Positions 2,628 to 26,963 of a DNA stretch of 30,803 nt are shown piece after piece (the stretch's first letter is position 1; each line of letters opens with the position of its first letter). A program made the position numbers and the translations under genes. The notes under the pieces were generated by a model, which worked only from the letters and a program-made list of their open reading frames with translations, ran no database searches and had not been told where the DNA came from. Origin of the DNA: a virus; the IMG/VR virus record IMGVR_UViG_3300048837_000095, positions 1-30,803 of that record. One strand, given 5' to 3'.

Positions 2628-4778
2628 TTAGGCTACGCCCTGAGGAGCGGCCTGAGCTTGTGCGGCTTGCATTTGCTGTTGTTCCGACATCTGTTGCTGT
2701 CGTTCAGTCATTTGCTTGCCATGTTCGTGTGCATCAATCTCGATGTCAGCCTTTGTCAGTTTGAGACCACCCTCAAGAATTGCTTGAATGTCGTTTCGTT
2801 CTGAAAGCTCAGCATCGACCTGATTATCCGACAGAGCACGAATACGCTGCGTTTCAGCATTGTAAACGTCGATGATTAGCTTCTTAAGGTCAATTTCCTT
2901 ATCCACCTTAAGCTGCTGGTTCTCTTGCATGAGAGCCTGCATAGCCATTTCCATCTGCTGAACCTGAGGATCAGGTCCTTCCCGATCTTCTGGATCAAGG
3001 AACTGCTGCGGAATAGTCTTCTTGAGACGTTCGGCAAGATCATCAGCACCGGGCCAATCCTGTGCCTTCGCAACAAGATCGCCAGCCACTTGAAGAAGCT
3101 GTGGCCAAACTTGAACGGCGTCCATCATCGCCTGAGCAGCTTCAACCCGGCGGGTCGTGTAGCTTGCACCAGTCGCAAGAGCAACGTCGTAACGACCAAC
3201 GGATAGGTCAGGAGACCTTGGGTCGTTTGGATCATTGATCTTAAGGAACTTAGTCTTCTCGTCCTCCCCGATTACTCGGATAATACGAGTGCCGTCATAA
3301 ATCTGGCTGATAAGCTGGTTCATAACGTCACCAGCCTCAAGAACAGCAGCATTGCCGTTGTCATAATAAGTGATGGCCGCAATATCACCTTCACGCTGAC
3401 GAGCGTTAATGGCGCGACCAGAAGTTTCATTCGACCTGATACCCAGCGACGCATCGTGGATACCTGTAACGTCCTTCATATCCTGTACGTTAGCTTCTGC
3501 TTCCTGATGGAGAGCAGCCTGCCACTTGGGAGGATCAAGACGTTGGATATTCTGGCCGATGATAGCGTCATCAGACACCTTGATGAGAGGATCACGAGAC
3601 AAGTGAGCCTTGCGAAGCTCATCCTCGTACCCTTCCACTGCACTTTCTGTTGCAATCCACTGTGCCTTAGGGGCGTAGCCCAATTGCTCAGCCGCAACAC
3701 TGCGATGGAAGTTCCTCAGGCGTACTGAGTCCTTCATAAAGCGGACAATACCGTAACGGATGCGCTGACCAGCTACGTTGACCACTCGACCACTCATCCG
3801 AATAATCGGAACGCGGTTTAGACGATACTCATACGGGCCTGACAAGATGTCATAACCAGTAACCAAGTGCATTTGAGCGTAGGTGCAAGGAGCAACACGC
3901 GATTTAACGGGGTTGCCGTGCTTGCTGACCAGTTCATCAAGGTTCTCATCCACGAAGCGGACTGAACCGTCTTCAAAAAGGACAAGCAAGCGATCACGGT
4001 CGATCAATCGCCAGTATTCAGTTACCCGAATACCATCCGACTCGATCCAGCGATCAGAAACCATCTGTGAATATTCACGATTAGATAGCTCAGAAGGCTT
4101 TGCATCCGGCCATTTACGTTCAAAATCCTTTGTAGGGATCAGATCGTCCACAAAACAGTGACGAGCATCGCGCCCAGTAGGATCAACACTCAGGCGGTCC
4201 CAAACAACACTCAAGGCGTCGTCAATAGGGCGAATGAAGATGTCTTGATCGAACACATCGTCCTTAGCGTACTCTACAGCGATGCGGAATGCACCATCGC
4301 CGCAGGACACAGCAGACTCAAAAGCGTTGTCGTACACCCTGTCAGCCCGGCTTTGGGTTTCAACAGAGCGAACAAGGTCTGCTCGAATGTCAGCGAGGTC
4401 TTTATCGCCTTCCTCTGTAGGAAGAATCTTAACTCCTCGCTTGCTTTCACGCCAATCACCTACAAGTTGGGCGATGAACTGTGGTACAGAGTTAATAACG
4501 AGGCACGGAAGACCCTTACGCTGTTCTAGGACGATTGGGTCCCACTGCTGTCCAGCAGCAAAGCGTTTGTCTTCAAGTGCATTCTCGCGGTTGTCACGGT
4601 CGAAGTCATAGTCGAGTTGGTACTCTTCCCTCATATCCTGTAGGAAGTCCTCGACGGTATCAAAACCCTCAGGAACATAATCCTTTTCCACAGGAGAAGA
4701 GTCGTACCGAAGCACATCTACCTTCGTTGCGGTGTCAGTTACCTTTTGGTCTGACTTGGGGTTAGGTTTCTTCGCCAA
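2628..4778 (-). CDS. Portal protein, P22-like
   Basis: A 716-residue protein, close to the 725 residues of the P22 portal. It would form the dodecameric ring through which DNA enters and leaves the head. The N-terminal third carries the charged and aromatic pattern of the family, with a segment near residues 85-100 (FAAGQQWDP then VLEQRKGLPC) typical of P22-type portals. The last about 100 residues are Gln/Met-rich and helical (QMEMAMQALMQENQ and MTERQQQMSEQQQMQAAQ), like the barrel of P22 gp1. The start is TTG at 4776-4778, with AGGA 6 bases upstream, just 3 bases after the terminase stop codon, implying translational coupling. Confidence 0.88.
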   Translation of the reverse strand: MAKKPNPKSDQKVTDTATKVDVLRYDSSPVEKDYVPEGFDTVEDFLQDMREEYQLDYDFDRDNRENALEDKRFAAGQQWDPIVLEQRKGLPCLVINSVPQFIAQLVGDWRESKRGVKILPTEEGDKDLADIRADLVRSVETQSRADRVYDNAFESAVSCGDGAFRIAVEYAKDDVFDQDIFIRPIDDALSVVWDRLSVDPTGRDARHCFVDDLIPTKDFERKWPDAKPSELSNREYSQMVSDRWIESDGIRVTEYWRLIDRDRLLVLFEDGSVRFVDENLDELVSKHGNPVKSRVAPCTYAQMHLVTGYDILSGPYEYRLNRVPIIRMSGRVVNVAGQRIRYGIVRFMKDSVRLRNFHRSVAAEQLGYAPKAQWIATESAVEGYEDELRKAHLSRDPLIKVSDDAIIGQNIQRLDPPKWQAALHQEAEANVQDMKDVTGIHDASLGIRSNETSGRAINARQREGDIAAITYYDNGNAAVLEAGDVMNQLISQIYDGTRIIRVIGEDEKTKFLKINDPNDPRSPDLSVGRYDVALATGASYTTRRVEAAQAMMDAVQVWPQLLQVAGDLVAKAQDWPGADDLAERLKKTIPQQFLDPEDREGPDPQVQQMEMAMQALMQENQQLKVDKEIDLKKLIIDVYNAETQRIRALSDNQVDAELSERNDIQAILEGGLKLTKADIEIDAHEHGKQMTERQQQMSEQQQMQAAQAQAAPQGVA

Positions 4779-10927: not shown

Positions 10928-11735
10928 CAACGGCCTTCCACCGTTGTTGTTATCACCTGAGCATGTGGGTAAACTGCTCACTCGCCCAAAGATCAGATGG
11001 GCACACAGTTTCGGCAGGGCTGGATTACAGTCGGCTAGTAGCGGGGTGTAGGCGCGTCAAAATTAGCGTCCACTTGCAAGTGCATCAATTCATTAGCGGA
11101 AGCATGTAAGAGAGGGAGCGCTCGTAAGGCGCAATGATCTCTAATCACCAGTAACGCGGTGACGAACGAGCATGTGTTAAGCTTTTGGGTTTTCCGTAAA
11201 CACCGACTCCGGCACGGCCCAGACCCTCTTAGATATTAGTTCTAAAACAGGGTTTCGATCTCCTGTGTTTCTGTGTGTCCTTCTGACCTTTGGTCAAGTA
11301 TTGAGCAACGCTTCGTTGCGAAGCTCTTACCCTTGGGTAGTGGCCTACTACTCACTCATAGTCCCGGTAAGCCCATTGGAAGTAGCGAGCCAATAACGCA
11401 AACCTGAAAAAGACCGTCTCAAAACCGCCTCCAACGCGGTGGTCAATGATGAGGACAAACTCATACCCTCTTCGCCCAGTTGCACGTACCAACGTGCTCA
11501 GTGTCGAGGATAGGCAATGGATCGTCAGTCTATAAACGGATGATTGCCGATAGAGTAATGAGGACTATGCGGTTCAATTCCGCACCAAGGGACTAAGTAA
11601 CCAGTTACCGAGCGCCTGTCATCAGGCTGGGAGACAGGATTGCTTGGTAAACAGGGTGTTGATCCCCAGCATCGTAAAGGGCATGATGATGGGTTCTCGT
11701 GAGAGACGATCCACCCCAACAATTTCATAAAGGAG
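10926..11735 (+). ncRNA. 0.8 kb non-coding region dense in RNA stems
   Basis: No convincing gene lies between 10927 and 11742. Potential perfect stems are unusually dense: AACAACGG/CCGTTGTT (10926-10948), GCTCGT/ACGAGC (11120-11171) enclosing TCACC/GGTGA, TGACC/GGTCA (11284-11296), nested GACC and ACCGC stems (11412-11444), GCACGT/ACGTGC (11482-11497), GGCAAT/ATTGCC (11513-11548) and an 8-bp stem TTACCGAG/CTTGGTAA (11605-11650). Size and ornateness recall giant phage RNAs such as GOLLD or ROOL, but no consensus motif of either was recognised. No promoter was found; it may be part of the long early transcript. Confidence 0.45.
11330..11592 (+). ncRNA. tRNA-like closed structure around a 190-base insert
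   Basis: A textbook T-arm is present: TGCGG, seven-base loop TTCAATT, CCGCA (11568-11584). Immediately after it CCAAGGG (11585-11591) pairs perfectly over 7 bp with CCCTTGG at 11330-11336, with A as discriminator position. Next to the 5' strand a D-arm-like hairpin can form (AGTG/CACT or GTAGT/ACTAC), and TAGTCC (11359-11364) pairs with GGACTA (11562-11567) directly before the T-arm. This helix order resembles the tRNA-like domain of tmRNA, but the sequence lacks its conserved 5' motif, an encoded CCA and an alanine-type G-U pair. Confidence 0.45.
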
Positions 11736-11741
11736 TTGACT

Positions 11742-11906
11742 ATGACAGTCACCGCTCTTCGCACCCTTCGACAGACAGGGGACGAATGCCCCATTTGCGG
11801 AGGAAAGAACGGACAGCACGAGTTCATTCGTGTTCCCTATCCTTATCCGTTCAACAAGGCTGTGTTCAAATACGCCCCGTGTCCTTTGGAGGCTAAGGAT
11901 GAGTAA
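11742..11906 (+). CDS. Small zinc-ribbon-like protein, unknown
   Basis: A 54-residue protein with CPICGG (Cys 16 and 19) and a later Cys near residue 47, a partial zinc-ribbon pattern. ATG at 11742 follows AAGGAG at a spacing of 7. The final codons overlap the start of the gamma-glutamylcyclotransferase-like gene by 8 bases, making it the first gene of the amidoligase operon and placing it directly after the structured RNA region. No specific role is recognised. Confidence 0.72.
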   Translation: MTVTALRTLRQTGDECPICGGKNGQHEFIRVPYPYPFNKAVFKYAPCPLEAKDE

Positions 11907-12243
11907 CATTCTTTACGTTTACGGAACGCTACGCCCCGGCAATGCGGACACCGTGATGGTGAAGGGCCAGCTTTACGATCTTGGCTGGTTTCCCGGCATC
12001 AAGCTGGGCGGCACAGGCGATGTTGTCTGTAAGAAGATCGAAGTTGATGATTGGGCAGCGGTAGATCGTTACGAAGGCTACATGCCCTCTGACCCGGCCA
12101 ACAGCCTTTACATTCGTGTGCCGTTTGGTGACGGCTTCATCTATGAGTTTAACCGTGATGTCAACCCGGTCAAGCTAGTGCCCACTGGTGACTGGTTGGA
12201 TTACACCCAAGAAAAGCGAGGCATAAATGGTGGACGTTTCTGA
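11899..12243 (+). CDS. Gamma-glutamylcyclotransferase-like protein
   Basis: A 114-residue protein of the GGCT/AIG2-like fold. The N-terminal YVYGTLRPG (residues 6-14) is the family signature that binds the gamma-glutamyl group, and DRYEGY (about residues 56-61) carries the expected catalytic glutamate. Known members release 5-oxoproline from gamma-glutamyl amines or dipeptides, or trim gamma-glutamyl-amine links. Beside amidoligases and amidotransferases it probably edits or recycles gamma-glutamyl products. ATG at 11899 has GGAGG 7 bases upstream; a longer upstream frame exists but would run through the previous gene. Confidence 0.88.
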   Translation: MSNILYVYGTLRPGNADTVMVKGQLYDLGWFPGIKLGGTGDVVCKKIEVDDWAAVDRYEGYMPSDPANSLYIRVPFGDGFIYEFNRDVNPVKLVPTGDWLDYTQEKRGINGGRF

Positions 12244-13168
12244 CACAGTTTTGAAGGCAGCTAAGAAGAAGCTGCATGAAAAGACGAAGAATTGGACTGG
12301 CGGCGTGTGTGACGGTGCTGTTCTGTATCTTGACGGCAGCGAAGTCACTTACGCTCACACAGCCTGTCATGCGTGGGTCACGTATGCTTTCCGTAAGGCC
12401 TGTAAGATTGGTTCGATGTTTGACTTCACGTTCCAGTCATATCCCGAAGGTGCCAAGGACTTCATGGTTCTGACGTGCCACAAGAAAGCGAAGTCAGCAG
12501 CCAGTGCTGCGGCGATGGATGCAATCATTCTGTGGATGGCCCGCGAGTCTCCCTTCGCCAAGTACGTGCTGAACGCTGACGACACTGACAGCCTGACCAA
12601 CGACGGTGCTATCATCCTGTGTGGCCCGAACGGTGCATCTCTTGCGGAAGCTATGTGGATGTGCAAGGTTCTTCGCTATTCGACGGAAGGCAGCCGCGCC
12701 CTTGATACGTGGAAGACGCTGTATGACGGCGGTGTCAACCCCATGCTCGCTGTCCTTATCTGCACTCACATATCGTCTGTGAAGGGCAGCACGTTTGGTG
12801 CGTCTGAGGTATGCAGTCACGTCCGCGTCTTCAACTACCGCGAAAGTGCTGACCCCGACATTTTCAACCTGTTGCGTGGTGAGAGCAACCCCGGTGCAAA
12901 GGATACATCGTCGCTGTTCAATCACGGCAAGTCCAAGAACGCTGGCAAGAAGGTTCCCGCAGTTTCGGGCAAGGTTCGCGGCTTCTGTAAGCCATTCAAG
13001 AAGTCTGATGGCTGGGGCGGCTTTATTGAGGGTAACGGTGCTGATGCCACCGAGTTGGTTGAGCGCGTCCTCAAGTGGCAGCGCGAACTCGAAGATACTT
13101 TCGAGATGGCACAAGCTGCACCTGCCATGCCTGATAGCAACACTGTTTATCTCGAACTCGATCTTTAA
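12227..13168 (+). CDS. Unknown protein of the amidoligase operon
   Basis: A 313-residue soluble protein starting at ATG 12227, overlapping the previous gene by 17 bases. No family is recognised. The sequence is Cys- and His-bearing but without regular metal motifs; residues about 215-260 are Gly/Ser/Lys-rich and likely a flexible linker (SLFNHGKSKNAGKKVPAVSG), followed by a compact C-terminal segment. Tight packing between gamma-glutamylcyclotransferase-like and class I amidotransferase genes suggests a part in the same pathway, perhaps as substrate-binding or scaffold protein; this is context only. Confidence 0.85.
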   Translation: MVDVSDTVLKAAKKKLHEKTKNWTGGVCDGAVLYLDGSEVTYAHTACHAWVTYAFRKACKIGSMFDFTFQSYPEGAKDFMVLTCHKKAKSAASAAAMDAIILWMARESPFAKYVLNADDTDSLTNDGAIILCGPNGASLAEAMWMCKVLRYSTEGSRALDTWKTLYDGGVNPMLAVLICTHISSVKGSTFGASEVCSHVRVFNYRESADPDIFNLLRGESNPGAKDTSSLFNHGKSKNAGKKVPAVSGKVRGFCKPFKKSDGWGGFIEGNGADATELVERVLKWQRELEDTFEMAQAAPAMPDSNTVYLELDL

Positions 13169-13183
13169 CCAAGGAGCGTAAAT

Positions 13184-13867
13184 ATGATGACACCAGCCGA
13201 ACAGAAGCGTCTCGAAGGCGAGGCCACCATGCGGGAGATTTACGATCTTCGTGTGTTGGTCGTCGGAGGCGGCTTCCAGTATCTCAAGATGTTCTACGAC
13301 GCTGGCATGAAGGGCGCTAAGAACGTCGAGGATGCAGACATCATCTGCTTCACTGGCGGCGAGGACGTGGACCCTGCCATGTACGGCGAGGAACCTATCC
13401 CCGAAACCTACTTCAACCCGAAGCGTGATGCTGTTGAAGCAGGCATCTATGCCGATGCTTTAGTTGCTAAGAAGCCTATGATCGGCATCTGTCGTGGTTC
13501 GCAATTCCTCAACGTGATGAACGGCGGCAAGCTGTGGCAGGATGTGAACAACCATGCGTGTCGTGGCGGTCACAGCATCATCCACATGGGGACAGGTGAG
13601 GTCAAGCACAACATGACCAGCACTCACCATCAGCAGATGCGTCCTACGGATAACGCGGAGATTATCGCTGTTGCTGAACTGTCCACCAAGAAGGTCAGCA
13701 TGAGCGAAGTTATCAGCCGTGACGAAGCTGAGGACGACGACATTGAGGTTGTCTGGTATCCTGACAGCTTGTCTCTGTGTTTTCAGCCTCATCCTGAGTT
13801 TCAGCATGGCGAGTGCCGGAACTATTTTCTTGATCTCGTCGATAGTTACATCCTTCCAGCCTGTTAA
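13184..13867 (+). CDS. Class I glutamine amidotransferase-like (peptidase C26 type)
   Basis: A 227-residue protein of the class I glutamine amidotransferase fold, nearest to the gamma-glutamyl hydrolase / PuuD-like C26 group. CFTGGEDVDPAMYG (55-68) is the typical loop; the nucleophile elbow is GICRGSQFLN with Cys103, and QPHPEF supplies His203 and Glu205, so the triad is complete. Such enzymes hydrolyse gamma-glutamyl amides or release ammonia from glutamine. In this operon it may cleave a gamma-glutamylated intermediate or feed ammonia to a ligase. ATG 13184 follows AGGAG at a spacing of about 8. Confidence 0.93.
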   Translation: MMTPAEQKRLEGEATMREIYDLRVLVVGGGFQYLKMFYDAGMKGAKNVEDADIICFTGGEDVDPAMYGEEPIPETYFNPKRDAVEAGIYADALVAKKPMIGICRGSQFLNVMNGGKLWQDVNNHACRGGHSIIHMGTGEVKHNMTSTHHQQMRPTDNAEIIAVAELSTKKVSMSEVISRDEAEDDDIEVVWYPDSLSLCFQPHPEFQHGECRNYFLDLVDSYILPAC

Positions 13868-13879
13868 GGAGAATTGAAT

Positions 13880-15091
13880 ATGTGTGGTCTTGTAGGCATT
13901 TATTCGTCCAACATGATGGCGAAGCACAAGGACGCCCTTGCTGCTTTGCTGTATCTCGACACTTGGCGAGGGCGTGACAGTACCGGCGTGGCGGCTATCC
14001 GGCACAACGCCGACACTCACATCCTCAAGTCCACGGTGCCGGGCTACGAGTTCGTGGAAGGACCGAAGCTGGATCAGCACCTCAAGCTGAATGACTTCTG
14101 TTGGATTGGTCACAATCGTGCCGGAACGATGGGCAAGAATATCAAGACGAATGCCCACCCGTTCGAGATACTGGACGACGATGGTTCGTGCATTCTTGTT
14201 GGTGCTCACAACGGCACCCTCAAGAACAAACACGCCTTGATGGATCATGTCGAGTTCGGCACTGACAGCGAGGCATTGTACAACCACATCGCCAACACAT
14301 CGTTGGAAGAGACGATCCCCTTGGTCGAAGGTGCGTGGGCACTGACCTACTACGACCACATTGCCGAAGAATTGCGGTTCATTCGTAACAAGGAACGTCC
14401 TCTGTTCTACGCCTTCGAGGAAGGCAAGAAGACTCTCATCTGGGCGTCGGAAATGTGGATGATCCGCGTTGCGTGTTCGCGGTTCGACATCAAGTTGCAG
14501 GACGACAAGGTGTTCTCGTTCGCAGAGGATACTCTTTATGCCTTCCCTGCCCCGGAGAAGCTTGACGAGGAGCTGACCCATACCCGCAAAGGAGGGCTTG
14601 TCGGTAAGACCCCCGCTTTTTTTCAGGGCGAAGCCTGGGAGAACGGACGGTGGACTTCTGGGAGTCGTGGGCAAGGGAGCAACACGAACCAAACCACTCA
14701 CACGCAAGGAACGCAAACGGCTCAAAGCACAGCAACGAGCACAGCGGCGCTGACAGCGGGGGGCGCGGGCAGTTCGAGTTCGCAATCTGGGACGAGCAGC
14801 GGAAGCAGTGGAGGGAAGCAACCCTCAGCGAACGCTACTTCATCCAGCGGAGCGTCAAGCAATGTGCGTAATATCCTGACGGCCAAGAAGTTCAAAGGCT
14901 ATCAGGGTGTATTGCTATCCAAAACCGAACTGGAGAACCAGCTTGCTGGCGGTTGCGGATGGTGTGAGGCCGAGTTCATCGGCGATAAAGATCGGTATGC
15001 TTGGCTTGCTCCGGGCAAACCCGTGTGTGCTAAGTGTCTCGACGGCACACATGAACCAAGTGAGACACAGACCAAAGTTTCGGTTCACTAA
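13880..15091 (+). CDS. Class II glutamine amidotransferase with linker and zinc ribbon
   Basis: A 403-residue protein. ATG 13880 (AAGGAG at spacing 8) puts Cys at position 2, the N-terminal nucleophile of Ntn-type amidotransferases; an upstream TTG would bury it and is rejected. Family motifs follow: RGRDSTGVAAI (30-40), GHNRAGT (77-83), AHNGTL (109-114) and TDSEAL (128-133). No synthetase domain is fused. After residue about 255 comes a roughly 70-residue Ser/Thr/Gly/Ala-rich linker, then a C-terminal part with CGWC and CAKC that probably binds zinc. It would hydrolyse glutamine and pass ammonia to a partner ligase. The linker region also reads as a protein-like sequence in the -1 frame. Confidence 0.92.
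   Translation: MCGLVGIYSSNMMAKHKDALAALLYLDTWRGRDSTGVAAIRHNADTHILKSTVPGYEFVEGPKLDQHLKLNDFCWIGHNRAGTMGKNIKTNAHPFEILDDDGSCILVGAHNGTLKNKHALMDHVEFGTDSEALYNHIANTSLEETIPLVEGAWALTYYDHIAEELRFIRNKERPLFYAFEEGKKTLIWASEMWMIRVACSRFDIKLQDDKVFSFAEDTLYAFPAPEKLDEELTHTRKGGLVGKTPAFFQGEAWENGRWTSGSRGQGSNTNQTTHTQGTQTAQSTATSTAALTAGGAGSSSSQSGTSSGSSGGKQPSANATSSSGASSNVRNILTAKKFKGYQGVLLSKTELENQLAGGCGWCEAEFIGDKDRYAWLAPGKPVCAKCLDGTHEPSETQTKVSVH
14650..14871 (+). CDS. Possible nested gene or -1 frameshift extension inside the amidotransferase gene
   Basis: In the -1 frame relative to the amidotransferase, an open stretch ends at TAA 14869-14871. Its second half (GQFEFAIWDEQRKQWREATL then SERYFIQRSVKQCA) has aromatic and charged residues and codons like neighbouring genes, whereas the amidotransferase frame here is low-complexity. 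It could be reached by -1 slippage at T TTT TTT (14617-14623), which is correctly phased, or start independently at GTG 14650 with GGGAG 8 bases upstream. It may also be an old frame made silent by compensating frameshifts. Confidence 0.4.
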   Translation: MDFWESWAREQHEPNHSHARNANGSKHSNEHSGADSGGRGQFEFAIWDEQRKQWREATLSERYFIQRSVKQCA

Positions 15092-15101
15092 GGAGTAGAA
15101 T

Positions 15102-15926
15102 ATGACGATGAAGATCACAATCGGTGCTGATCCTGAACTGTTCGTAACTCAGGACGGCAAGTTCCGGTCAGCGCACGGCCTGATCCCCGGCACCAAGGAT
15201 ACCCCTTTCAAGGTTGAGGGTGGCGCTGTTCAGGTAGATGGAATGGCACTGGAGTTCAACATTGATCCGGTGGACAATGCTGACGACTTCGTTCGCAACA
15301 TCAACGTGGTCATGGACCAGATGCGTGAAATGGTTCCCGGCTACGAGTTCGCCGTGGTCCCTTCGTGCAAGTTCAACGGCAACCACTTCCGGACACAACC
15401 CGAAGAAGCCAAGGAGCTAGGTTGCACTCCCGATTACAACGCTTACACGTTGAAGGAGAACCCGCGTCCCGACAACAAGACCACCATGCGGACTGCCTCT
15501 GGGCACATCCACATCGGCGGCTTCGAGACCGATGATCCGATGAGCGACGAACACATGATCCGTTGCGCTACGTTGGTCAAACAGCTCGACTGCTACCTTG
15601 GTCTGCCGTCTTTGCTGTGGGATCGTGACGTTACCCGTCGCAAGATGTATGGCGCTGCCGGTGCATTCCGACCGAAGCCTTATGGCGTTGAGTATCGTGT
15701 GTTGTCGAACGCATGGTTGCTGAACGAGAACCGTATGCGGTTCGTATTCGCTCAGACTGTTCGCGCCGTCAATGATTTGATCGGTGGCAACCGTCCTGTT
15801 GGCCTAATTGGCGACCAGCACCTTATCCAAGCGATCAACAGTTCGGATCGCGACAGCGCCGCATACTTTATCGAGAATTTCCTCAAGGGCGGGTCCGAGA
15901 TTTATCAGGAAGCCAAGGCACTTTAA
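15102..15926 (+). CDS. phiEco32-like COOH-NH2 ligase (type 2, glutamine synthetase fold)
   Basis: A 274-residue protein matching the amidoligase family first noted in phage phiEco32. The N-terminal GADPEL (8-13), ALEFNI (49-54), the histidine strand SGHIHIGGF (133-141) and GVEYRVLSNAW (195-205) are the expected metal- and ATP-binding elements of the glutamine-synthetase-like catalytic barrel. The reaction class is ATP-dependent joining of a carboxyl to an amine, often making peptide or isopeptide bonds. ATG 15102 follows AGGAG at spacing 8. It lies directly after the class II amidotransferase gene, the arrangement expected if ammonia or an amine is supplied to it. Confidence 0.93.
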   Translation: MTMKITIGADPELFVTQDGKFRSAHGLIPGTKDTPFKVEGGAVQVDGMALEFNIDPVDNADDFVRNINVVMDQMREMVPGYEFAVVPSCKFNGNHFRTQPEEAKELGCTPDYNAYTLKENPRPDNKTTMRTASGHIHIGGFETDDPMSDEHMIRCATLVKQLDCYLGLPSLLWDRDVTRRKMYGAAGAFRPKPYGVEYRVLSNAWLLNENRMRFVFAQTVRAVNDLIGGNRPVGLIGDQHLIQAINSSDRDSAAYFIENFLKGGSEIYQEAKAL

Positions 15927-15941
15927 TCGGAGGCGTTTATC

Positions 15942-16601
15942 ATGTCGCTCAAAGGAGATAAGTACGAGACGCAGGAAGAAGCCAATTTCCGTCTCAACAA
16001 AACCGTAGTGCTGTATAACGGCAAGCCCGTCTATATCACCCGTGTCAACATGCCCGAAGTCGAGGATAAGGAGGAGATCGCTAGGGTTTTCTTCGTTGAA
16101 TTGCCTTATGGTAAGATGATCGTCGATGGCGCGAAGGAGACCCGTAAGTATCTTTCTTCGCGTAAGTTCGATCTGGCCCCGTTTCGTATGGGCTATTTCA
16201 ACCACAACGGAGAGGCTATCTTTGCATCTCGCACCCCTGTCCGCCAGAATCAGCAGGGTTTGAACGCAAGGAATGTCACCTTTGTTGATGCTCGTGGTAA
16301 GCGGGCGGACAACATGAACTTCAACGAGATGATTAAGTCTCAAGGGTTTGTGGACATGGTGAATGGTGTGTTCCCTGATTTCACTGCGGCTGGGGAGATG
16401 CTTGGCAATAAGGACAATTCGTCGATTGCGGTGAGCCGTTCGTTCGCTTTCCATGTGGACCACGATCTTGAAGCCTTGCTGCTTCTGCACAAGGGTATCC
16501 GATGTGGTATTGCTTTGAAGGGCGACCGTGCATTGAAAGTTCCTCCGAAGTTCCACTTCCTTCGGGAAGAAATGGAACAGTGCCGTATCCCGCTGGCTTA
16601 A
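15942..16601 (+). CDS. Unknown protein between two amidoligase genes
   Basis: A 219-residue protein with GGAGG 9 bases before ATG 15942. The N-terminal half is beta-rich (NKTVVLYNGKPVYITRVN), the C-terminal half mixed. I recognise no domain. Short spacing on both sides (16 and 15 bases) places it firmly within the amidoligase operon, so it may be a substrate carrier or accessory subunit, as inference from position only. Confidence 0.85.
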   Translation: MSLKGDKYETQEEANFRLNKTVVLYNGKPVYITRVNMPEVEDKEEIARVFFVELPYGKMIVDGAKETRKYLSSRKFDLAPFRMGYFNHNGEAIFASRTPVRQNQQGLNARNVTFVDARGKRADNMNFNEMIKSQGFVDMVNGVFPDFTAAGEMLGNKDNSSIAVSRSFAFHVDHDLEALLLLHKGIRCGIALKGDRALKVPPKFHFLREEMEQCRIPLA

Positions 16602-16616
16602 GAATGAGAGGTTACT

Positions 16617-17816
16617 ATGACTAGGTTACAAGATTTCCTCAACTCCTCTGTGTCCAGTGTAGCCCCGATGGGCCGTCACCCCAAGCAGGGTGATTTGTTC
16701 GGCGTGGAGCTGGAATGTGAGGGCGTTAATGTCGGGTTCTACGGCATGAACGAGAAATTGCTCAAGGATTGGGCACCCCACAACGACGGCTCTCTGCGGG
16801 CCTACAAGGGTAATCCTCCTTGTGAATGGGTCTTCAACGGCCCTGTGAAGTACGAACAGGCGGTCGAACGTGTGAATAGCATCTTTGACTATTTCGACAA
16901 GCAGAAGACCAGGCTGGTCCAGTCCAACCGAACCTCCGTTCACGTTCACTTTAACATGAGTGACAAGAACGCTTACCAGCTTGTCAATATGTTCATCCTC
17001 TTCACCATTCTTGAAGACTTGATGGATCGTTATTGCGGTGAAGACCGTAATGGCAATCTGTTTTGTTTGTCCTCGCGCCATGCGGAAGAACAGGTTCGTT
17101 GGATGCAGGATGCTTGTTTCAAGAATTTCCGTTTCAACTACAACGAACAGAACCGTTACACGTCTTTCAATGTCGCTGCCATCAATAAGTTCGGCACGGT
17201 CGAGTTTCGTGGTATGCGTGGTCTGGACAATCGTGAAGACATTCTGGCTTGGCTGGATATTCTTAACGAGTTCACCGATTACGCTTGTTACAAGATGGAG
17301 AACCCGGTTACGTTGATTGAAGAAATCAGCATCAAGACTCCCATCGGTTTCATCAAGGAGGTATTCTCGAAGGAAAACTTCCTGCGTCTGACCAAGGGTA
17401 TCGACGAGAGCGACATTAACAATTCGATCTACGAAGGTCTGCGTCTTGTTCAGATGCTCTGCTACAAGATCGGCACCGAGTTCGATCAGGTGCGTCTTCG
17501 GGGTCGTGATTTCTGGGCTTCATTCAACAACGATGTTGAACCGGAGCCGGATATTGATCCGGGAGTTTTGCTGGGTCGCGCAGCGGCACCTCCCAAGCCC
17601 CGTGGTGGACGTGGTGGTCTTCGTATCGAACCAGTTTTGCGGCCTGATGCGGCTCGTGCACAGCTTCTCCGCAATGAAGCGCAAGCTTTGCAAATTAATG
17701 ATATGCTGAATGCTTTCCGTCAGGCTCCTGCCGGTTTGCGTGACGCACAGTGGGCGATTGCACCGCAACCACCTGCTCCCGAACCTCGTGAAGATGGAGA
17801 TGACGTTGGCTTTTAA
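16617..17816 (+). CDS. Amidoligase (glutamine synthetase fold)
   Basis: A 399-residue protein of the putative amidoligase family (PF12224 type). Visible signatures are FGVELECEG (28-36), HNDGSLR (55-61), CEWVF (69-73), RTSVHVHFN (105-113) and GTVEFRGMRG (193-202), which together form the glutamine-synthetase-like active site. Residues about 310-399 form a Pro/Ala/Arg-rich tail (PPKPRGGRGG and APQPPAPEP) that looks disordered and may bind a partner. It is distinct from the phiEco32-type ligase upstream, so two different ligases of this fold occur in one operon. ATG 16617 starts 15 bases after the previous gene. Confidence 0.93.
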   Translation: MTRLQDFLNSSVSSVAPMGRHPKQGDLFGVELECEGVNVGFYGMNEKLLKDWAPHNDGSLRAYKGNPPCEWVFNGPVKYEQAVERVNSIFDYFDKQKTRLVQSNRTSVHVHFNMSDKNAYQLVNMFILFTILEDLMDRYCGEDRNGNLFCLSSRHAEEQVRWMQDACFKNFRFNYNEQNRYTSFNVAAINKFGTVEFRGMRGLDNREDILAWLDILNEFTDYACYKMENPVTLIEEISIKTPIGFIKEVFSKENFLRLTKGIDESDINNSIYEGLRLVQMLCYKIGTEFDQVRLRGRDFWASFNNDVEPEPDIDPGVLLGRAAAPPKPRGGRGGLRIEPVLRPDAARAQLLRNEAQALQINDMLNAFRQAPAGLRDAQWAIAPQPPAPEPREDGDDVGF

Positions 17817-18549
17817 GGTTTACCCGTATAAGCAAGGAAGTGCTGGCGCTAAGGCGCTGGCCCTTGCTCTCGATGGAAAGGTGCTTAAGCATGTTGGTTC
17901 CAAATATCGACCTCGTGTTGGTGATGTTGTTGTTAATTGGGGTGCTGCTGTGGTTCCTCAATTCGCCCCCGCCACCACCCTCAACCGCGACGTAACCCGT
18001 GCACAGTGCAAGCTCGCCTCCTTCAAGGCGTTCGCTGAGGCTGGTGTCCGAGTCCCGCCCTTTGTCGAAACCAAGGAAGAAGCCGCGAAGCTCAACTTCC
18101 CCGTGGTATGTCGAACGAAGCTCCGGGGACACTCTGGAGACGGTATCGTCATCGCCAACAAACCGGACGAGTTGGTTGCCGCCCCGCTCTATACGCAATA
18201 CGTCAAAAAGAAGGACGAGTATCGGGTCCACGTATTCGGTGGTCGTGCCTTCTTCATCCAACGCAAGGCGCGTAAGCGTGAAGTCGAGAACCCGAACTGG
18301 CAAGTCCGTAACCTCGCTGGCGGTTTCATCTTTGCTGAGGTGGATCACGCCGAAGTTCCTGCCGATGTTCTTGACAGTGCTGTCAACAGCATCGCTGCTC
18401 TGGGTCTTGACTTCGGAGGCGTAGATGTAGTGTGGAACGACAAGGAAGGTAAGGCTTATTGCCTTGAGGTGAACACTGCCTGTGGTCTTGAGAACCGCTC
18501 TGCGGAAAAGTACCGAGAGGTTTTACAGAATTACATTGACAATGTGTAG
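17800..18549 (+). CDS. ATP-grasp ligase (RimK-like)
   Basis: A 249-residue ATP-grasp protein. PVVCRTKLRGHSGDGI (101-116) gives the ATP-binding lysine and glycine-rich loop; YTQYVKKKDEYRVHVF (131-146) is the hinge and strand; GLDFGGVDVVW (202-212) and CLEVNTACGL (221-230) give the magnesium-binding acid and Asn. Members form amide bonds through acyl-phosphates, often adding amino acids to peptides. The exact start is uncertain: ATG 17800 (GAAG upstream) overlaps the amidoligase by 17 bases; ATG 17794 and TTG 17806 (GGAG upstream) are alternatives. Its last about 20 codons have a diverged second copy beyond the HNH gene. Confidence 0.92.
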   Translation: MTLAFKVYPYKQGSAGAKALALALDGKVLKHVGSKYRPRVGDVVVNWGAAVVPQFAPATTLNRDVTRAQCKLASFKAFAEAGVRVPPFVETKEEAAKLNFPVVCRTKLRGHSGDGIVIANKPDELVAAPLYTQYVKKKDEYRVHVFGGRAFFIQRKARKREVENPNWQVRNLAGGFIFAEVDHAEVPADVLDSAVNSIAALGLDFGGVDVVWNDKEGKAYCLEVNTACGLENRSAEKYREVLQNYIDNV

Positions 18550-18564
18550 TGTTTATGATATAAT
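18536..18564 (+). promoter_or_regulatory. Promoter for the HNH gene, inside the ATP-grasp 3' end
   Basis: TTGACA (18536-18541), 17-base spacer, TATAAT (18559-18564): exact consensus boxes. The -35 box lies within the last codons of the ATP-grasp gene, so it may have arrived with the HNH cassette. Confidence 0.82.
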
Positions 18565-18589: not shown

Positions 18590-18991
18590 ATGTCTAATAC
18601 TACAGCAGAACGATGGGAACGGTGGTCTAAACGCAACCCTGAGAAGGCAAATCAAAGGATGAGAGACTGGCGACGCCGTAACCCTAAATACATGCTTCGT
18701 CATTCAGCAGAGCGCAGGGCCAAGGCGAAAGGAATTGAGTTTGCTCTTACTCTTGATGATATTCCTGATATCCCTGATCGCTGTCCTATTACTGGGATTA
18801 TTCTTAGCCCCCGTAATGACGGCAGGCGTGGTCCTTGCGACAGTAGCCCCAGTCTCGACCGCATACAGAGTGAGTTTGGGTATATCCCCGGAAACGTCCG
18901 GGTCATTTCTCACCGAGGAAACCGGTGGAAAGGAGAAATGACCCGTGATGAAGTCCAACGAGTCCTCGACTATATCGACGGAAAAATTTAA
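18590..18991 (+). CDS. HNH homing-type endonuclease
   Basis: A 133-residue protein of the small free-standing HNH group common in phages. A basic Trp/Arg-rich N-terminal region (RNPEKANQRMRDWRRRNP) precedes CPITGI (about 65-70), SLDRIQSEFGYIPGNVRVIS (about 90-109) and a closing HRGNRWKG: the His, Asn and metal-site layout of the family. It would nick or cut DNA at a specific site and promote spread of its own gene. AAGGAG lies upstream, and it has its own promoter. It sits between the ATP-grasp gene and a second, diverged copy of that gene's 3' end, direct evidence of insertion. Confidence 0.9.
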   Translation: MSNTTAERWERWSKRNPEKANQRMRDWRRRNPKYMLRHSAERRAKAKGIEFALTLDDIPDIPDRCPITGIILSPRNDGRRGPCDSSPSLDRIQSEFGYIPGNVRVISHRGNRWKGEMTRDEVQRVLDYIDGKI

Positions 18992-19581: not shown

Positions 19582-19609
19582 TTGACAAATCCGTCAAGCG
19601 TGGTATAAT
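19582..19609 (+). promoter_or_regulatory. Promoter with an overlapping palindrome
   Basis: TTGACA (19582-19587), a 16-base spacer, then TATAAT (19604-19609). A 7-bp inverted repeat, GCTTGAC (19580-19586) with GTCAAGC (19593-19599), covers the -35 box and looks like an operator. It drives the gene at 19666 and probably those after it. Confidence 0.8.
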
Positions 19610-20419: not shown

Positions 20420-20827
20420 ATGCAGTTTCAAGATTGTGTTCTGAAAAGTCATCCAACCGGCAGTCGTTACATCTGCAACCCCGACCCTACGGACACAGAT
20501 AATGACACTGTTTTTCTGGTTAATGGTTATCACGATTGGGTTTCCATTCTATTGAATGACGGCTGGGAAGACTGCGGTAAGCAATATGAAGGACATGATG
20601 CCGAGTTTCGAGCCTTCCGTAAAGGGGAAGAAAACTATATCGTGACTGAGGATATTCAGTTTTATCTTTCATATCTGAAAGCAACAGAAGGAGCAAAAGC
20701 TCTTAACCTGTTGAACAAGGAAGATCGCATAAAGCTGTTTCAGGCTATCAGTTGCACCACTCTTAACGGGCTTCATAACCCTATGACCGCACATGACATA
20801 CATGCTATTGAGGCTATTCCGTTTTGA
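20420..20827 (+). CDS. Possible nucleotidyltransferase-fold protein
   Basis: A 135-residue protein. GSRYICNPDPTDTDNDTVFL (14-33) resembles the nucleotidyltransferase-fold signature: Gly-Ser, then two acids separated by one residue. A conserved-looking C-terminal part follows (FYLSYLKATEGAKALNLLNK). Similar proteins occur near replication genes in T7-like phages, as far as I recall. ATG 20420 follows AAGGAGG. It ends in EAIPF, partly like an SSB tip, and its stop overlaps the primase-helicase start. Confidence 0.6.
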   Translation: MQFQDCVLKSHPTGSRYICNPDPTDTDNDTVFLVNGYHDWVSILLNDGWEDCGKQYEGHDAEFRAFRKGEENYIVTEDIQFYLSYLKATEGAKALNLLNKEDRIKLFQAISCTTLNGLHNPMTAHDIHAIEAIPF

Positions 20828-22449
20828 GTAAGTTCATTCGACACGAGGGTTGCCCCAAGTGCGGTTCTTCCGACGGGCTGGCAATTTACGAAGACAACAA
20901 ACATTGCTTTGTTTGTGGTTATCACGAAGGAGAAGGTAACATTTCTGACAAACACGAAATCCGACACGCCGCCGACCGAGACCTTACCCCTGTTCCTGTT
21001 CAAGACCAGATCGCAATCAAGGATCGTGGCATCAGTGCAGGTGCGGTCAACAAATACAAGGTCACTGTAAACACTAACCCGGAAAGCCAAGTAGGCCATG
21101 TCTATCCCTATTTCGATGCTAACGGAGCACACGTTGCAAACAAGGTTCGCCGTAAGGGTGAGAAAGCTTTCTTCTGGGAAGGTGACGTTGCAGCAGGGAC
21201 GCTCTTCGGTCAGCAATTGTTCCCTGCTGGCGGAAAAGCTATTACGATTGTTGAAGGAGAGTGTGACGCACTCGCAGGGTTCCAGCTTACTGGAAGTAAG
21301 TATCCTTGTGTATCGGTCAAATCAGCAAGTGAAGCTAAACGTAATTGTGTAGATAACTTCGAGTATCTCGACAGCTTCGAGAAGATTGTTATCTGCATGG
21401 ATAACGACGAGCCGGGTCAGAAGGCAGCAGGCCAGATCGCTCAGCTCTTTGCACCGGGTAAGGCACACATTCTTAAGCTGGAAAAGGCTAAAGACCCTAA
21501 CGATTATCTTGTTAAGGGTATGGAGAAGGACTACATCAACGAGTGGTTCCGTGCTCCGGCCTACATGCCTGATGGTCTGCGTCTTGGCTCTGACAAGGGG
21601 CTTCTGGACGAGATCATCAACTACAAGGAACCAGAGTGCATTCCGTATCCGTGGGCTGGTCTGAACAACAAGCTCTATGGCATCCGTCTTTCAGAACTTA
21701 CCTTGTTCACTGCTGACACTGGCATTGGCAAGACTACGTTTATGAAAGAGATTGAGTATGCTTTGCTGCAAAGCGAAGACCTCAAGGAGCGTGGTTACGG
21801 TGTGGGCTTTCTTCACCTTGAAGAACCTAAGCGTGAAACCCTGCTAGGTATGCTCTCGATCCACCACAACAAGCCCTATCACCTTCCCGACACTCCAAAA
21901 AGTCCTGAGGATTTGACGCGGGCTTACAAGGAAGTGCTGGATAACAAGCGTGTCGTGGTGTATGACCACTTCGGATCGAATGAGATTGACACTATTCTCG
22001 CTAAGATCAGGCACATGGTTGCTCTCGGCTGTCGTTACATTGTTCTCGACCACCTCAGCATCATCGTGTCCGACCAGAGTGGAGACGAACGTAAGCAGCT
22101 TGACGAGATCAGCACCAAGCTTAAGAGCTTGACGATGAACCTCCAGATTGCTGTTGTTGCAGTCATTCACATCAATCGTCAAGGACAGGTCCGTGGCTCT
22201 GCTGGTCCTGAACAGGTCAGCAACAACGTCATTCGTTTGACGCGTGACAAGAAGGAAGTAGATGATTGGCGTAGGAACGTCACACAGATGGACGTTGAGA
22301 AGTGTCGTCTGAGTGGTCGAACAGGTCCGGCTTGCTGGATTTTCTACGATAATGAAACTGGTCGTCTTGTTGAGCTGACTCCTGACCTTGTTAAGAGGTT
22401 TCAGGAAGGCGGCTCAATAGCAGGCGGAGAGTTTGAAGCATACAGTTAA
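20824..22449 (+). CDS. DNA primase-helicase, T7 gp4-like
   Basis: A 541-residue bifunctional protein that primes and unwinds DNA at the fork. The N-terminal zinc domain has Cys10, Cys13, Cys28 and Cys31 (CPKCGSSDG and CFVC). The TOPRIM primase core has VEGECDAL (143-150) and CMDNDEPG (191-198). The RecA-like helicase has Walker A ADTGIGKTT (297-305), HLEEPKRET (331-339), Walker B YIVLDH (405-410) and a later VIHINRQGQVRG arginine-finger region. The start is TTG at 20824, overlapping the preceding TGA; no later start would keep the zinc domain. Confidence 0.96.
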   Translation: MSKFIRHEGCPKCGSSDGLAIYEDNKHCFVCGYHEGEGNISDKHEIRHAADRDLTPVPVQDQIAIKDRGISAGAVNKYKVTVNTNPESQVGHVYPYFDANGAHVANKVRRKGEKAFFWEGDVAAGTLFGQQLFPAGGKAITIVEGECDALAGFQLTGSKYPCVSVKSASEAKRNCVDNFEYLDSFEKIVICMDNDEPGQKAAGQIAQLFAPGKAHILKLEKAKDPNDYLVKGMEKDYINEWFRAPAYMPDGLRLGSDKGLLDEIINYKEPECIPYPWAGLNNKLYGIRLSELTLFTADTGIGKTTFMKEIEYALLQSEDLKERGYGVGFLHLEEPKRETLLGMLSIHHNKPYHLPDTPKSPEDLTRAYKEVLDNKRVVVYDHFGSNEIDTILAKIRHMVALGCRYIVLDHLSIIVSDQSGDERKQLDEISTKLKSLTMNLQIAVVAVIHINRQGQVRGSAGPEQVSNNVIRLTRDKKEVDDWRRNVTQMDVEKCRLSGRTGPACWIFYDNETGRLVELTPDLVKRFQEGGSIAGGEFEAYS

Positions 22450-22458
22450 GGAAACCAT

Positions 22459-24258
22459 ATGTACCTCGATTGGGAAAACAGACCAGAGGATTATTACGCA
22501 GTTGACATTGAAACGGACGGCCTTGATGCGAAAGTTATCTGGGTCATGTGTTGGGAGAATATCCGAACTAAGGAAACAGGTAAGTGCATCGGCGAGGCGG
22601 AAGTCAAGCAGTTCTTTGACGAGACTGCTGGAAGCATTTACGTCGGCCATAATATCCTCAAGTTCGACGCTCCAACCATTAACCGGCTTGCCGGTACGCA
22701 GCTTGTTGTCTCCAAGATTGTGGATACACTTGTCCTTTCCACGCTCTACAGCCCGTCTATAAAGGATGGACACTCTCTTGCAGCGTGGGGCCAGAGGATT
22801 GGGTATCCTAAGCTTGAGTTCAACGACTGGACTCATCTATCGGATGAGATGATTACCTACTGCCACAAGGACGTAGAGGTCACGGCCCAACTGTTTCGTA
22901 AGATCACCAAGGTCTTGACTAAGATTGGGTTCAGTGAGATGTCGTGCTACATCCAACACAACATCACTGCAATCCTTGCTCGACAACAGCGTAACGGTTT
23001 CTACTTCGACGGTGAACGAGCTTTAGCATTTTACCAACAACTTCGCAATCGTGAAGAGGAATTACAGGAGCAAATTAGACATGCTTTCCCTGCGGAGAGG
23101 GTCTTCATACGAGAACGAAATGTTTTCACAAAGTCTGGCCAAGTTACGGCTCTCTATAAACGAGACCGACAAACTTATGAAACAGAACTATTTGATGACG
23201 GAAGAAGCTATCGAGCATATGAGAACGTCCCTTTCAATATTGGAAGCCCAAAGCAGAGAGTTGAAAAACTTACTGCGCTCGGATGGGTGGCTGATGAAAA
23301 AACTCCGACAGGGCAGCCAAAGCTAACCGAGAAGTCTGCTGTTGCCTTTGCCGAAAGCAGTGGTATCAATGAAGTTGCACTGATTACCAAGTGGATGTCC
23401 GTCAACGGACGGGCTAACATGATTAACACTTGGTTGAATGAATGGAACGAAGATGACAGATGTATCCACGGTAACTTGTTCGTGGCGGATACACTCCGCT
23501 TCCGGCACCAGCGACCTAATACAGCAAACATTCCCGCTGTTCGAGTTGCGAAGTCAGGTGAAATCCTTTATGGAGAGGACGGATACTACACTTACGAAGC
23601 TCGTGATCTCTGGACCGCAAGGCCAAACCGTGTTCTCGTGGGAACAGACGCCGCTGGGCTTGAGCTTAGGATGCTTGCTCACTATCTTAACCGTGCTGAC
23701 TTCACAGAAGGCGTAGTTAATGGTGATCCGCATCAGGTAAACGCAGACATCGTAGGCATCGAACGACCGCAAGCAAAGACCTTGATCTACGCTGTGTGTT
23801 ACGGTGCTGGACCACCTAAGATTGCAGCAACCTTGAAGGTCCCTGTTGCCGAGGGTACACGAATTAGGACCTTGTTCCTTGAACGCTTAGGTCTTAAAGG
23901 ATTGATTGAGGATTGTCAACGTGAACAAGAAGCCGGACGTATATGGCTTGTGGATGGCTCAGGGGTTATCTGTCCATCTCCACATGCAGCACTCAACTAC
24001 AAACTTCAAGGTGGTGGTGCCAGAGTCATGGCACTCGGAGCCATCTTTTTGGAGAAGCATATACGACGTGCTGGACTGGACAGTCTCAAAGTTGGAGACA
24101 TTCACGACGAATGGCAATACGACGTTGCACCTGCGGATGCACGGGAGCACGCCCGACTTAGCGTTCAGTCAATTCGAGAAGCTGGTGAAGAACTTAACCT
24201 CAATGTCCCTCTTGATGGGACCGCAAAGGAAGGATTGACATGGGCGAGAACACATTAG
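22459..24258 (+). CDS. DNA polymerase, family A, T7-like
   Basis: A 599-residue polymerase, about 100 residues shorter than T7 gp5. The 3'-5' exonuclease is intact: DIE (Asp16, Glu18), GHNILKFD (63-70) and YCHKDVE (134-140). Polymerase motif A is VGTDAAGLELR (394-404, Asp397), motif B is RPQAKTLIYAVCYGAG (436-451) and motif C is GDIHDEW (546-552, Asp550). In T7 the thumb loop binds host thioredoxin; a comparable insertion is not obvious, so processivity may be achieved differently. ATG 22459 follows AAGGAA 10 bases after the primase-helicase stop. Confidence 0.96.
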   Translation: MYLDWENRPEDYYAVDIETDGLDAKVIWVMCWENIRTKETGKCIGEAEVKQFFDETAGSIYVGHNILKFDAPTINRLAGTQLVVSKIVDTLVLSTLYSPSIKDGHSLAAWGQRIGYPKLEFNDWTHLSDEMITYCHKDVEVTAQLFRKITKVLTKIGFSEMSCYIQHNITAILARQQRNGFYFDGERALAFYQQLRNREEELQEQIRHAFPAERVFIRERNVFTKSGQVTALYKRDRQTYETELFDDGRSYRAYENVPFNIGSPKQRVEKLTALGWVADEKTPTGQPKLTEKSAVAFAESSGINEVALITKWMSVNGRANMINTWLNEWNEDDRCIHGNLFVADTLRFRHQRPNTANIPAVRVAKSGEILYGEDGYYTYEARDLWTARPNRVLVGTDAAGLELRMLAHYLNRADFTEGVVNGDPHQVNADIVGIERPQAKTLIYAVCYGAGPPKIAATLKVPVAEGTRIRTLFLERLGLKGLIEDCQREQEAGRIWLVDGSGVICPSPHAALNYKLQGGGARVMALGAIFLEKHIRRAGLDSLKVGDIHDEWQYDVAPADAREHARLSVQSIREAGEELNLNVPLDGTAKEGLTWARTH

Positions 24259-26344: not shown

Positions 26345-26584
26345 ATGCCCACATATTCCGTATCTGTTAAGGTAGATCAAATTGTAACAAAGGAAGTGAA
26401 GCTCCAGATTGTTGCAGGTTCGGAAGAAGAAGCCGAAACCAAGGCCCGCGAAGCCTTGCAGACCTACCCAGAACCAGTGACAGTGAAAGGTGTGAACCGC
26501 ATCCTCACTGCCAAGTCTCACTACTGGATACCCCGCAGTATCGAGTTTATCAAGATCAGCAAGGATAAAGAAGCTAGTGGCTAG
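26345..26584 (+). CDS. Small protein of 79 residues, unknown
   Basis: ATG 26345 follows GAGG at a short spacing; the site can be hidden in a hairpin. The product begins MPTYSVSVKVDQIVTKEVKL and has a strand-strand-helix (SEEEAETKAREAL) layout seen in small alpha/beta phage proteins. No function is recognised. Its end overlaps the HNH gene start. Confidence 0.72.
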   Translation: MPTYSVSVKVDQIVTKEVKLQIVAGSEEEAETKAREALQTYPEPVTVKGVNRILTAKSHYWIPRSIEFIKISKDKEASG

Positions 26585-26963
26585 TACATTACGTCAAAAA
26601 GAGTGGTATCAGGAAAACTTAGAACGAGAACGTAAGAAACGCAGAGATTATTCTCGTCGAATGACAACCGATTTTACTGCTCGTAAAATGTTTGATGCAG
26701 CTAGAAATCGTTGCTCTAAAAACGGGACTATTTTCTCCATCACTTTAGACGATGTGGTGATACCAGAATTTTGCCCAATTTTGAAACAACCTCTAAAAGT
26801 TCGCACACGTTATGCACCTTCTCTTGATCGCATCGTTCCCTCTCTTGGATATGTTCCGGGAAATGTTTGGGTTATTTCACGTAAAGCTAACGTGATGAAA
26901 AATGATGCAACTTATGAGGAATTACAGGAGTTTTCCAAATGGGTAAAGACCTTTCAACCTTAG
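26577..26963 (+). CDS. Second HNH homing-type endonuclease
   Basis: A 128-residue HNH protein with the same layout as that at 18590: basic N-terminus (RERKKRRDYSRRM), CPILKQPL (about 68-75), SLDRIVPSLGYVPGNVWVIS and a final RKANVMKN. The two share domain order but differ widely, so they are separate acquisitions rather than a recent duplication. Codons are more AT-rich than in neighbours, a sign of transfer. The start is GTG 26577, overlapping the previous gene; the end overlaps the exonuclease gene by 25 bases. No duplicated flanking coding sequence is seen. Confidence 0.88.
   Translation: MASTLRQKEWYQENLERERKKRRDYSRRMTTDFTARKMFDAARNRCSKNGTIFSITLDDVVIPEFCPILKQPLKVRTRYAPSLDRIVPSLGYVPGNVWVISRKANVMKNDATYEELQEFSKWVKTFQP

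Follow-up and report, generated by a model that had tools for sequence, protein, structure and literature searches.

A complete phiEco32/RIO-1-type amidoligase cassette in a podovirus-like phage, with two hypothetical proteins among its core members

The DNA analyzed here (the window; 30,803 bases) comes from a podovirus-like phage and is a linear virus fragment in IMG/VR, record IMGVR_UViG_3300048837_000095. At positions 11899–18549 it carries eight tightly packed genes on the plus strand, encoding in order a gamma-glutamyl cyclotransferase-like protein (GGCT), a conserved protein of 313 residues (U313), a C26 peptidase-like protein, a class II glutamine amidotransferase (GATase II), a COOH–NH2 ligase, a protein of 219 residues (U219), an Amidoligase_2 protein and an ATP-grasp ligase. 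A preliminary description of this DNA had proposed a tight operon of six enzymes and two unknown proteins, and every open reading frame (ORF) was confirmed in place and strand. The junctions between the genes range from −17 to +15 nucleotides and a Shine–Dalgarno-like purine-rich stretch is clear upstream of most of them, which together fit one operon. Pfam recognizes six of the eight proteins as enzymes above its curated cut-offs and PHROGs concurs, strongly for five of the six; the catalytic residues of each recognized enzyme are intact and near-invariant in 30–99 relatives, in agreement with the complete active-site motifs described before. Purifying selection acts on each of the eight genes, whose ratios of nonsynonymous to synonymous substitution (dN/dS) are 0.03–0.19 against the nearest relative, locus L006. 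As a set of this kind has been published (PMC5498523, PMC11945000), the cassette belongs to a known kind, and it represents the phiEco32/RIO-1-type phage amidoligase cassette in full and in its standard form.

Three of the enzymes are ligases. The phiEco32-type (type 2) COOH–NH2 ligase (274 residues; 15102–15926, plus strand) matches phrog_3815 (E = 9e-87) and PF14395 (E = 7e-11; 42.3 bits, above the cut-off of 25), has 24 invariant columns across 15 phages, and its key residues D10, E12, D46, E51, H135, H137, R190, E197, and R199 are near-invariant. Amidoligase_2, the second glutamine synthetase (GS)-like ligase type (399 residues with a proline-rich tail; 16617–17816, plus strand; PF12224, E = 4e-8; phrog_7469, E = 6e-49), likewise keeps E31, E33, H109, H111, E196, and R198 near-invariant. 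The ATP-grasp ligase (249 residues; 17800–18549, plus strand, with its start placed at about 17800; phrog_2599, E = 2e-77) resembles RimK and the maturases of ribosomally synthesized and post-translationally modified peptides, being nearest to RimK and to the peptide maturases MvdC/MvdD; it lies marginally above the gathering score of PF08443 (RimK; E = 1e-4; 22.4 against 21), its matches to TIGR04185 and TIGR00768 are below cut-off, and E140, R142, D209, E223, and N225 are near-invariant. An assignment to the R2K clade was rejected, since R2K_2 and R2K_3 reach 14.3 and 17.2 bits against a cut-off of about 26 and the motif is an ordinary E-x-N.

The class II glutamine amidotransferase, a member of the N-terminal nucleophile (Ntn) type with a low-complexity linker (403 residues; 13880–15091, plus strand; PF13522, GATase_6, E = 1e-12), starts at 13880 (MCG) and not at the TTG at 13874; with this corrected start Cys2 becomes the nucleophile, and C2, R80, N111, and D129 are near-invariant in its relatives. 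Its protein sequence ends in a zinc-ribbon-like CGWC...CAKC, encoded at 14954–15037 (plus strand), and this C-terminal CxxC-x-CxxC is kept in 85 of 91 relatives.

Two further proteins belong to gamma-glutamyl-cleaving families. GGCT (114 residues; 11899–12243, plus strand) matches PF06094 (GGACT; E = 4e-6; 27.8 bits, above the cut-off of 22.8) and the structure of YtfP (PDB 1xhs; E = 1e-7), and the active-site glutamate E59 is kept in 30/30 relatives. The C26 peptidase/class I glutamine amidotransferase-like protein (227 residues; 13184–13867, plus strand; PF07722, Peptidase_C26, E = 1e-23) has C103, H203, and E205 conserved among its relatives and shares its fold family and Cys–His–Glu residues with C26 gamma-glutamyl hydrolases of the PuuD/SpuA type. 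The nearest PDB structures are Lin1909, 7d4r (a probable glutamine amidotransferase), and PuuD, and the nearest named matches include gamma-glutamyl hydrolases and, weakly, a gamma-glutamyl-CDP-amidate hydrolase. The label "class I glutamine amidotransferase" that the preliminary description attached to it is therefore insecure; the protein is a probable gamma-glutamyl hydrolase. An identity with PuuD, the gamma-glutamyl-gamma-aminobutyrate hydrolase itself, was discarded, as the NCBIfam equivalog scores 27 bits, far below its cut-off of 266.

Relatives of the COOH–NH2 ligase occur in 317 phage records and in no fewer than 554 IMG/VR stretches. To describe how the cassette genes co-occur, eight profiles were built by iteration from the window proteins and run on 93 non-redundant loci. 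The loci were picked by similarity of the COOH–NH2 ligase, and the figures therefore describe this phage group, not phages at large. The ligase occurs in 93 loci, U219, GATase II, and the amidoligase in 90 each, ATP-grasp in 89, U313 and C26 in 77 each, and GGCT in 29. Where the flanks are fully covered (65 loci), the ligase, GATase II, amidoligase, and ATP-grasp are present in 65/65, U219 in 64, and U313 in 61; U313 and U219 are thus core parts of the cassette. Failure of the genes to co-occur in related phages had been named in advance as what would count against the operon, and the 93-locus table shows strong co-occurrence. The commonest order, U313–C26–GATase II–ligase–U219–amidoligase–ATP-grasp, lacks GGCT and is found in 35 of the 93 loci, and the gene-neighbourhood search that had been proposed recovered the exact order of the window, with GGCT first, in 11 others. 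Together with the prior publication of a GGCT-containing enzyme set, this means that the combination is not "unusually rich" as first thought. A gamma-glutamyl-cleaving family (C26, GGCT, or both) was present in each of the 65 fully flanked loci, which adds support to the suggested editing of a gamma-glutamyl product, a reasonable inference; in L015 and L065 it is GGCT that occupies the usual C26 slot beside U313. A short variant with one order was observed in two loci (L108:953–4571 and L112:5174–8880) and consists of the ligase, C26, a nucleotidyltransferase-like protein with the motif GDLDIAI, and GGCT; in L112 a gene with an RNA polymerase Rpb2 domain is present as well, which suggests a jumbo phage.

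U313 (12227–13168, plus strand), filed as hypothetical in the records examined, has no match in Pfam, and direct tblastn against phages found none, so that profiles were required for its detection; its profile family then appeared next to C26 in 74 loci. In the larger alignment Cys47 is invariant (78/78), as is Arg150 (79/79), with His198 near-invariant (76/77) and Glu154 in 73/79. The AlphaFold2 model is confident (predicted local distance difference test, pLDDT, of 85) and places Cys47 directly before a helix. Foldseek with this model gave nothing in the PDB with E below 0.6, and the profile searches gave no credible matches; its Foldseek matches are confined to phages, namely CVT22, CW02, and, less confidently, GAP52, which bears a phiEco32-type ligase. 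Possibly, U313 acts as an additional thiol enzyme. A tentative reading, which we place well short of an even chance, is that it represents a new family of cysteine-dependent enzymes with a fold absent from the PDB, relying on Cys47 together with Arg150, His198, and in most members Glu154, for example an acyl- or gamma-glutamyl-transferase, acting as partner of the C26 hydrolase in a widespread phage pathway. Matches to a deaminase or a Prp protease were at chance level and were set aside, as was a first alignment with the guessed counterparts phiEco32 gp87 and PaP3 ORF49, which was too weak. Two or more adjacent C-[FYW]-G proteins precede the ligase in LAh_6 (L021:3604–8008), phiEco32 (L014:5815–7996), and PaP3 (L020:5764–7838) and, from their sequences, may be diverged U313 paralogues; among them, only the LAh_6 copies score borderline with the iterated profile (E = 0.0015–0.0024 before inclusion), and phiEco32 gp87 never became significant in it.

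U219 (15942–16601, plus strand; phrog_11055, E = 6e-21) lies between the two ligases, and in most loci it stands likewise between ligase and amidoligase. Pfam gave sub-threshold matches only. Its AlphaFold2 model, also confident (pLDDT 91), has two beta-rich parts with a weak Foldseek likeness to EF-P/eIF5A (best E = 2e-3, TM-score 0.23). The conserved residues Gly84, Arg97, Arg101, and Gly106 form no catalytic set, from which we infer a partner role: U219 is probably a non-catalytic partner.

The relation to the phiEco32-type ligase/amidotransferase set that had been noted from comparative work was borne out, the same families being co-conserved. A RIO-1-like set of GGCT, amidotransferase, two amidoligases, and ATP-grasp has been termed a "peptidoglycan modification cassette," common to RIO-1, phiEco32, 7-11, PA11, tf, MR299-2, LUZ24, PaP3, and CW02 (PMC5498523, which cites Hardies et al. 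2013 for phage RIO-1); a second paper restates this cassette or module (PMC11945000), and this literature predicts altered host peptidoglycan or blocked superinfection. By published description, PSA-HP1 ORFs 40–47 and RIO-1 share with the window GGCT, a glutamine amidotransferase, a gamma-glutamyl amidoligase, a second amidoligase, and ATP-grasp, whereas the PSA-HP1 paper (PMC5498523) has seven genes and names neither a C26 nor a U313 counterpart. The Zobellviridae cassettes (PA11, CVT22, the T4S1 and T5S1 phages, and Klyazma) have the order U313–C26–GATase II–ligase–U219–amidoligase–ATP-grasp–primase as in the window, but GGCT is missing or elsewhere, and the window also differs by its P22-type portal. 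All eight families occur in Sinorhizobium phage phiM6, which keeps this order, with GGCT at the 3' end, an extra class II GATase, and an inserted HNH gene as differences. phiEco32 and PaP3 (LUZ24-like) have ligase–U219–amidoligase–GATase II–ATP-grasp–GGCT, with GATase II after the amidoligase; C26 was not found in them and U313 was undetected by sequence. The cassette is rearranged in phiEco32, PaP3, LAh_6, and the crAss-like phi14:2. What the present analysis adds is the place of U313 and U219 in the core, the zinc-ribbon-like motif that closes GATase II, and the gamma-glutamyl-cleaving family in every fully flanked locus. In Slicky01 (L015:1–2269) and LAh_6 (L021:15027–16702) the cassette adjoins an NAD-salvage pair of ribose-phosphate pyrophosphokinase and nicotin(amid)ate phosphoribosyltransferase.

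The explanation that we consider likely is that this phiEco32/RIO-1-type cassette forms and trims gamma-glutamyl or isopeptide bonds, acting early in infection on a cytoplasmic substrate. From what is known of the families, the class II GATase would release ammonia from glutamine; the ATP-grasp enzyme and both GS-like ligases would use ATP to join carboxyl to amino groups, giving gamma-glutamyl or isopeptide bonds; and C26 and GGCT would cut gamma-glutamyl groups, either in deprotection or to clear wrong products. The hydropathy of the cassette proteins has no 19-residue peak above 1.25, and none of them shows a membrane segment that convinces, which makes a cytoplasmic substrate probable. A peptidoglycan precursor is the most likely option for it, at slightly under an even chance. 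The peptidoglycan idea is said to originate with Iyer et al. 2009, and in the literature it is a prediction repeated from there, which weighs against this reading, as do several other points. The window sequence holds no pointer to a wall substrate, and the open-access papers searched gave no biochemical or genetic test. The hosts of related phages span Pseudomonas to Cellulophaga, a range compatible with any universal substrate. The majority of C26 loci are without GGCT, so the two are no fixed pair, and choosing the loci by ligase similarity favors close relatives. A contig scan for host operons returned ten contigs of metagenome-assembled genomes only; these were mostly cassette-bearing and phage-like, and so gave no host-operon clue to the substrate.

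The gamma-glutamyl group serves as a removable protecting group in the butirosin (BtrJ/BtrG) and polyamine (PuuA/PuuD) pathways. A free metabolite as substrate, with a small gamma-glutamyl or peptide metabolite, for instance in anti-defence or signalling, as product and the gamma-glutamyl group in the same protecting role, is a possibility that we regard as doubtful; the likeness of C26 to PuuD and to gamma-glutamyl-CDP-amidate hydrolase, the cleaving family in each fully flanked locus, and the pairing of ligase with C26, nucleotidyltransferase-like protein, and GGCT in the short variant speak for it, whereas the cassette has no transporter, nonribosomal peptide synthetase, or carrier gene. 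The kinship of the ATP-grasp enzyme to RimK and MvdC/MvdD, and the protein modification proposed for other phage ATP-grasp (R2K) enzymes, could instead point to a protein substrate, with a peptide or amino-acid tag attached to a host or phage protein in a RimK-like modification; this is unlikely, as two GS-like ligases and two GATase-like proteins exceed the needs of known single-tag systems and the R2K models and motif do not fit. Nucleotides or nucleic acids are an improbable substrate: the cassette adjoins replication genes and the short variant has a nucleotidyltransferase-like protein, but no DNA-hypermodification gene was recognized among the ORFs searched, and a place beside replication genes is usual for many early phage genes. 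That unrelated accessory genes have gathered here by chance has a negligible likelihood; homing HNH genes interrupt some cassette copies, which indicates frequent insertion, yet order and content are conserved over the 93 loci under purifying selection, and the co-occurrence refutes it. Podovirus-like phages commonly carry the cassette, among them some that infect Pseudomonas and Escherichia coli. With the conserved set defined, two overlooked hypothetical genes placed in it, and candidate residues for mutation named, the long-repeated peptidoglycan guess becomes testable in phages of laboratory strains.

Just before GGCT, and overlapping its start, an ORF of 54 residues (11742–11906, plus strand; AAGGAG before its ATG) encodes a CxxC protein (CPICGG...PCP) and is possibly the first gene of the operon; copies in the same place exist solely in L006 (96% identity) and L025 (59%), and because it is confined to these closest relatives it was dropped as a peptide substrate. 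The minus strand of the window encodes terminase, a P22-type portal, and scaffold, and the cassette lies on the strand of the replication genes, upstream of the primase–helicase (20824–22449) and DNA polymerase (22459–24258), which a Cas4-like exonuclease and further nucleases accompany 3' of the cassette. Two extended −10 sigma70-type promoter matches without mismatch (TTGACA-17-TATAAT with TG) were found in the window. One (18536–18564, plus strand; 12/12, with TG before the second hexamer) lies where the ATP-grasp gene ends, and thus at the 3' end of the cassette, facing the downstream replication genes; the other (6747–6719, minus strand) faces the terminase and late genes. A third perfect hexamer pair, with a 16-nucleotide spacer, lies at 19582–19609, and directly upstream of the cassette there is no match of a quality equal to these perfect ones. 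The roughly 640 bases at 11100–11740 have no convincing gene and contain a tRNA T-arm-like stretch, TGCGGTTCAATTCCGCA, near 11568, which is unsupported, as ARAGORN found no tRNAs and Rfam no RNAs in the window. PADLOC gave no defence matches. The portal (2628–4778, minus strand) is like P22-like portals (VvAW1, BA3, DSL-LC05), and its best matches include none of the Zobellviridae that carry the cassette, which suggests, at the level of sequence likeness, a mosaic genome. Two HNH endonuclease genes of one family (phrog_3322) lie at 18590–18991 and 26577–26963 on the plus strand, and the cassette itself is interrupted by HNH genes in GP100, phiM6, and Klyazma.

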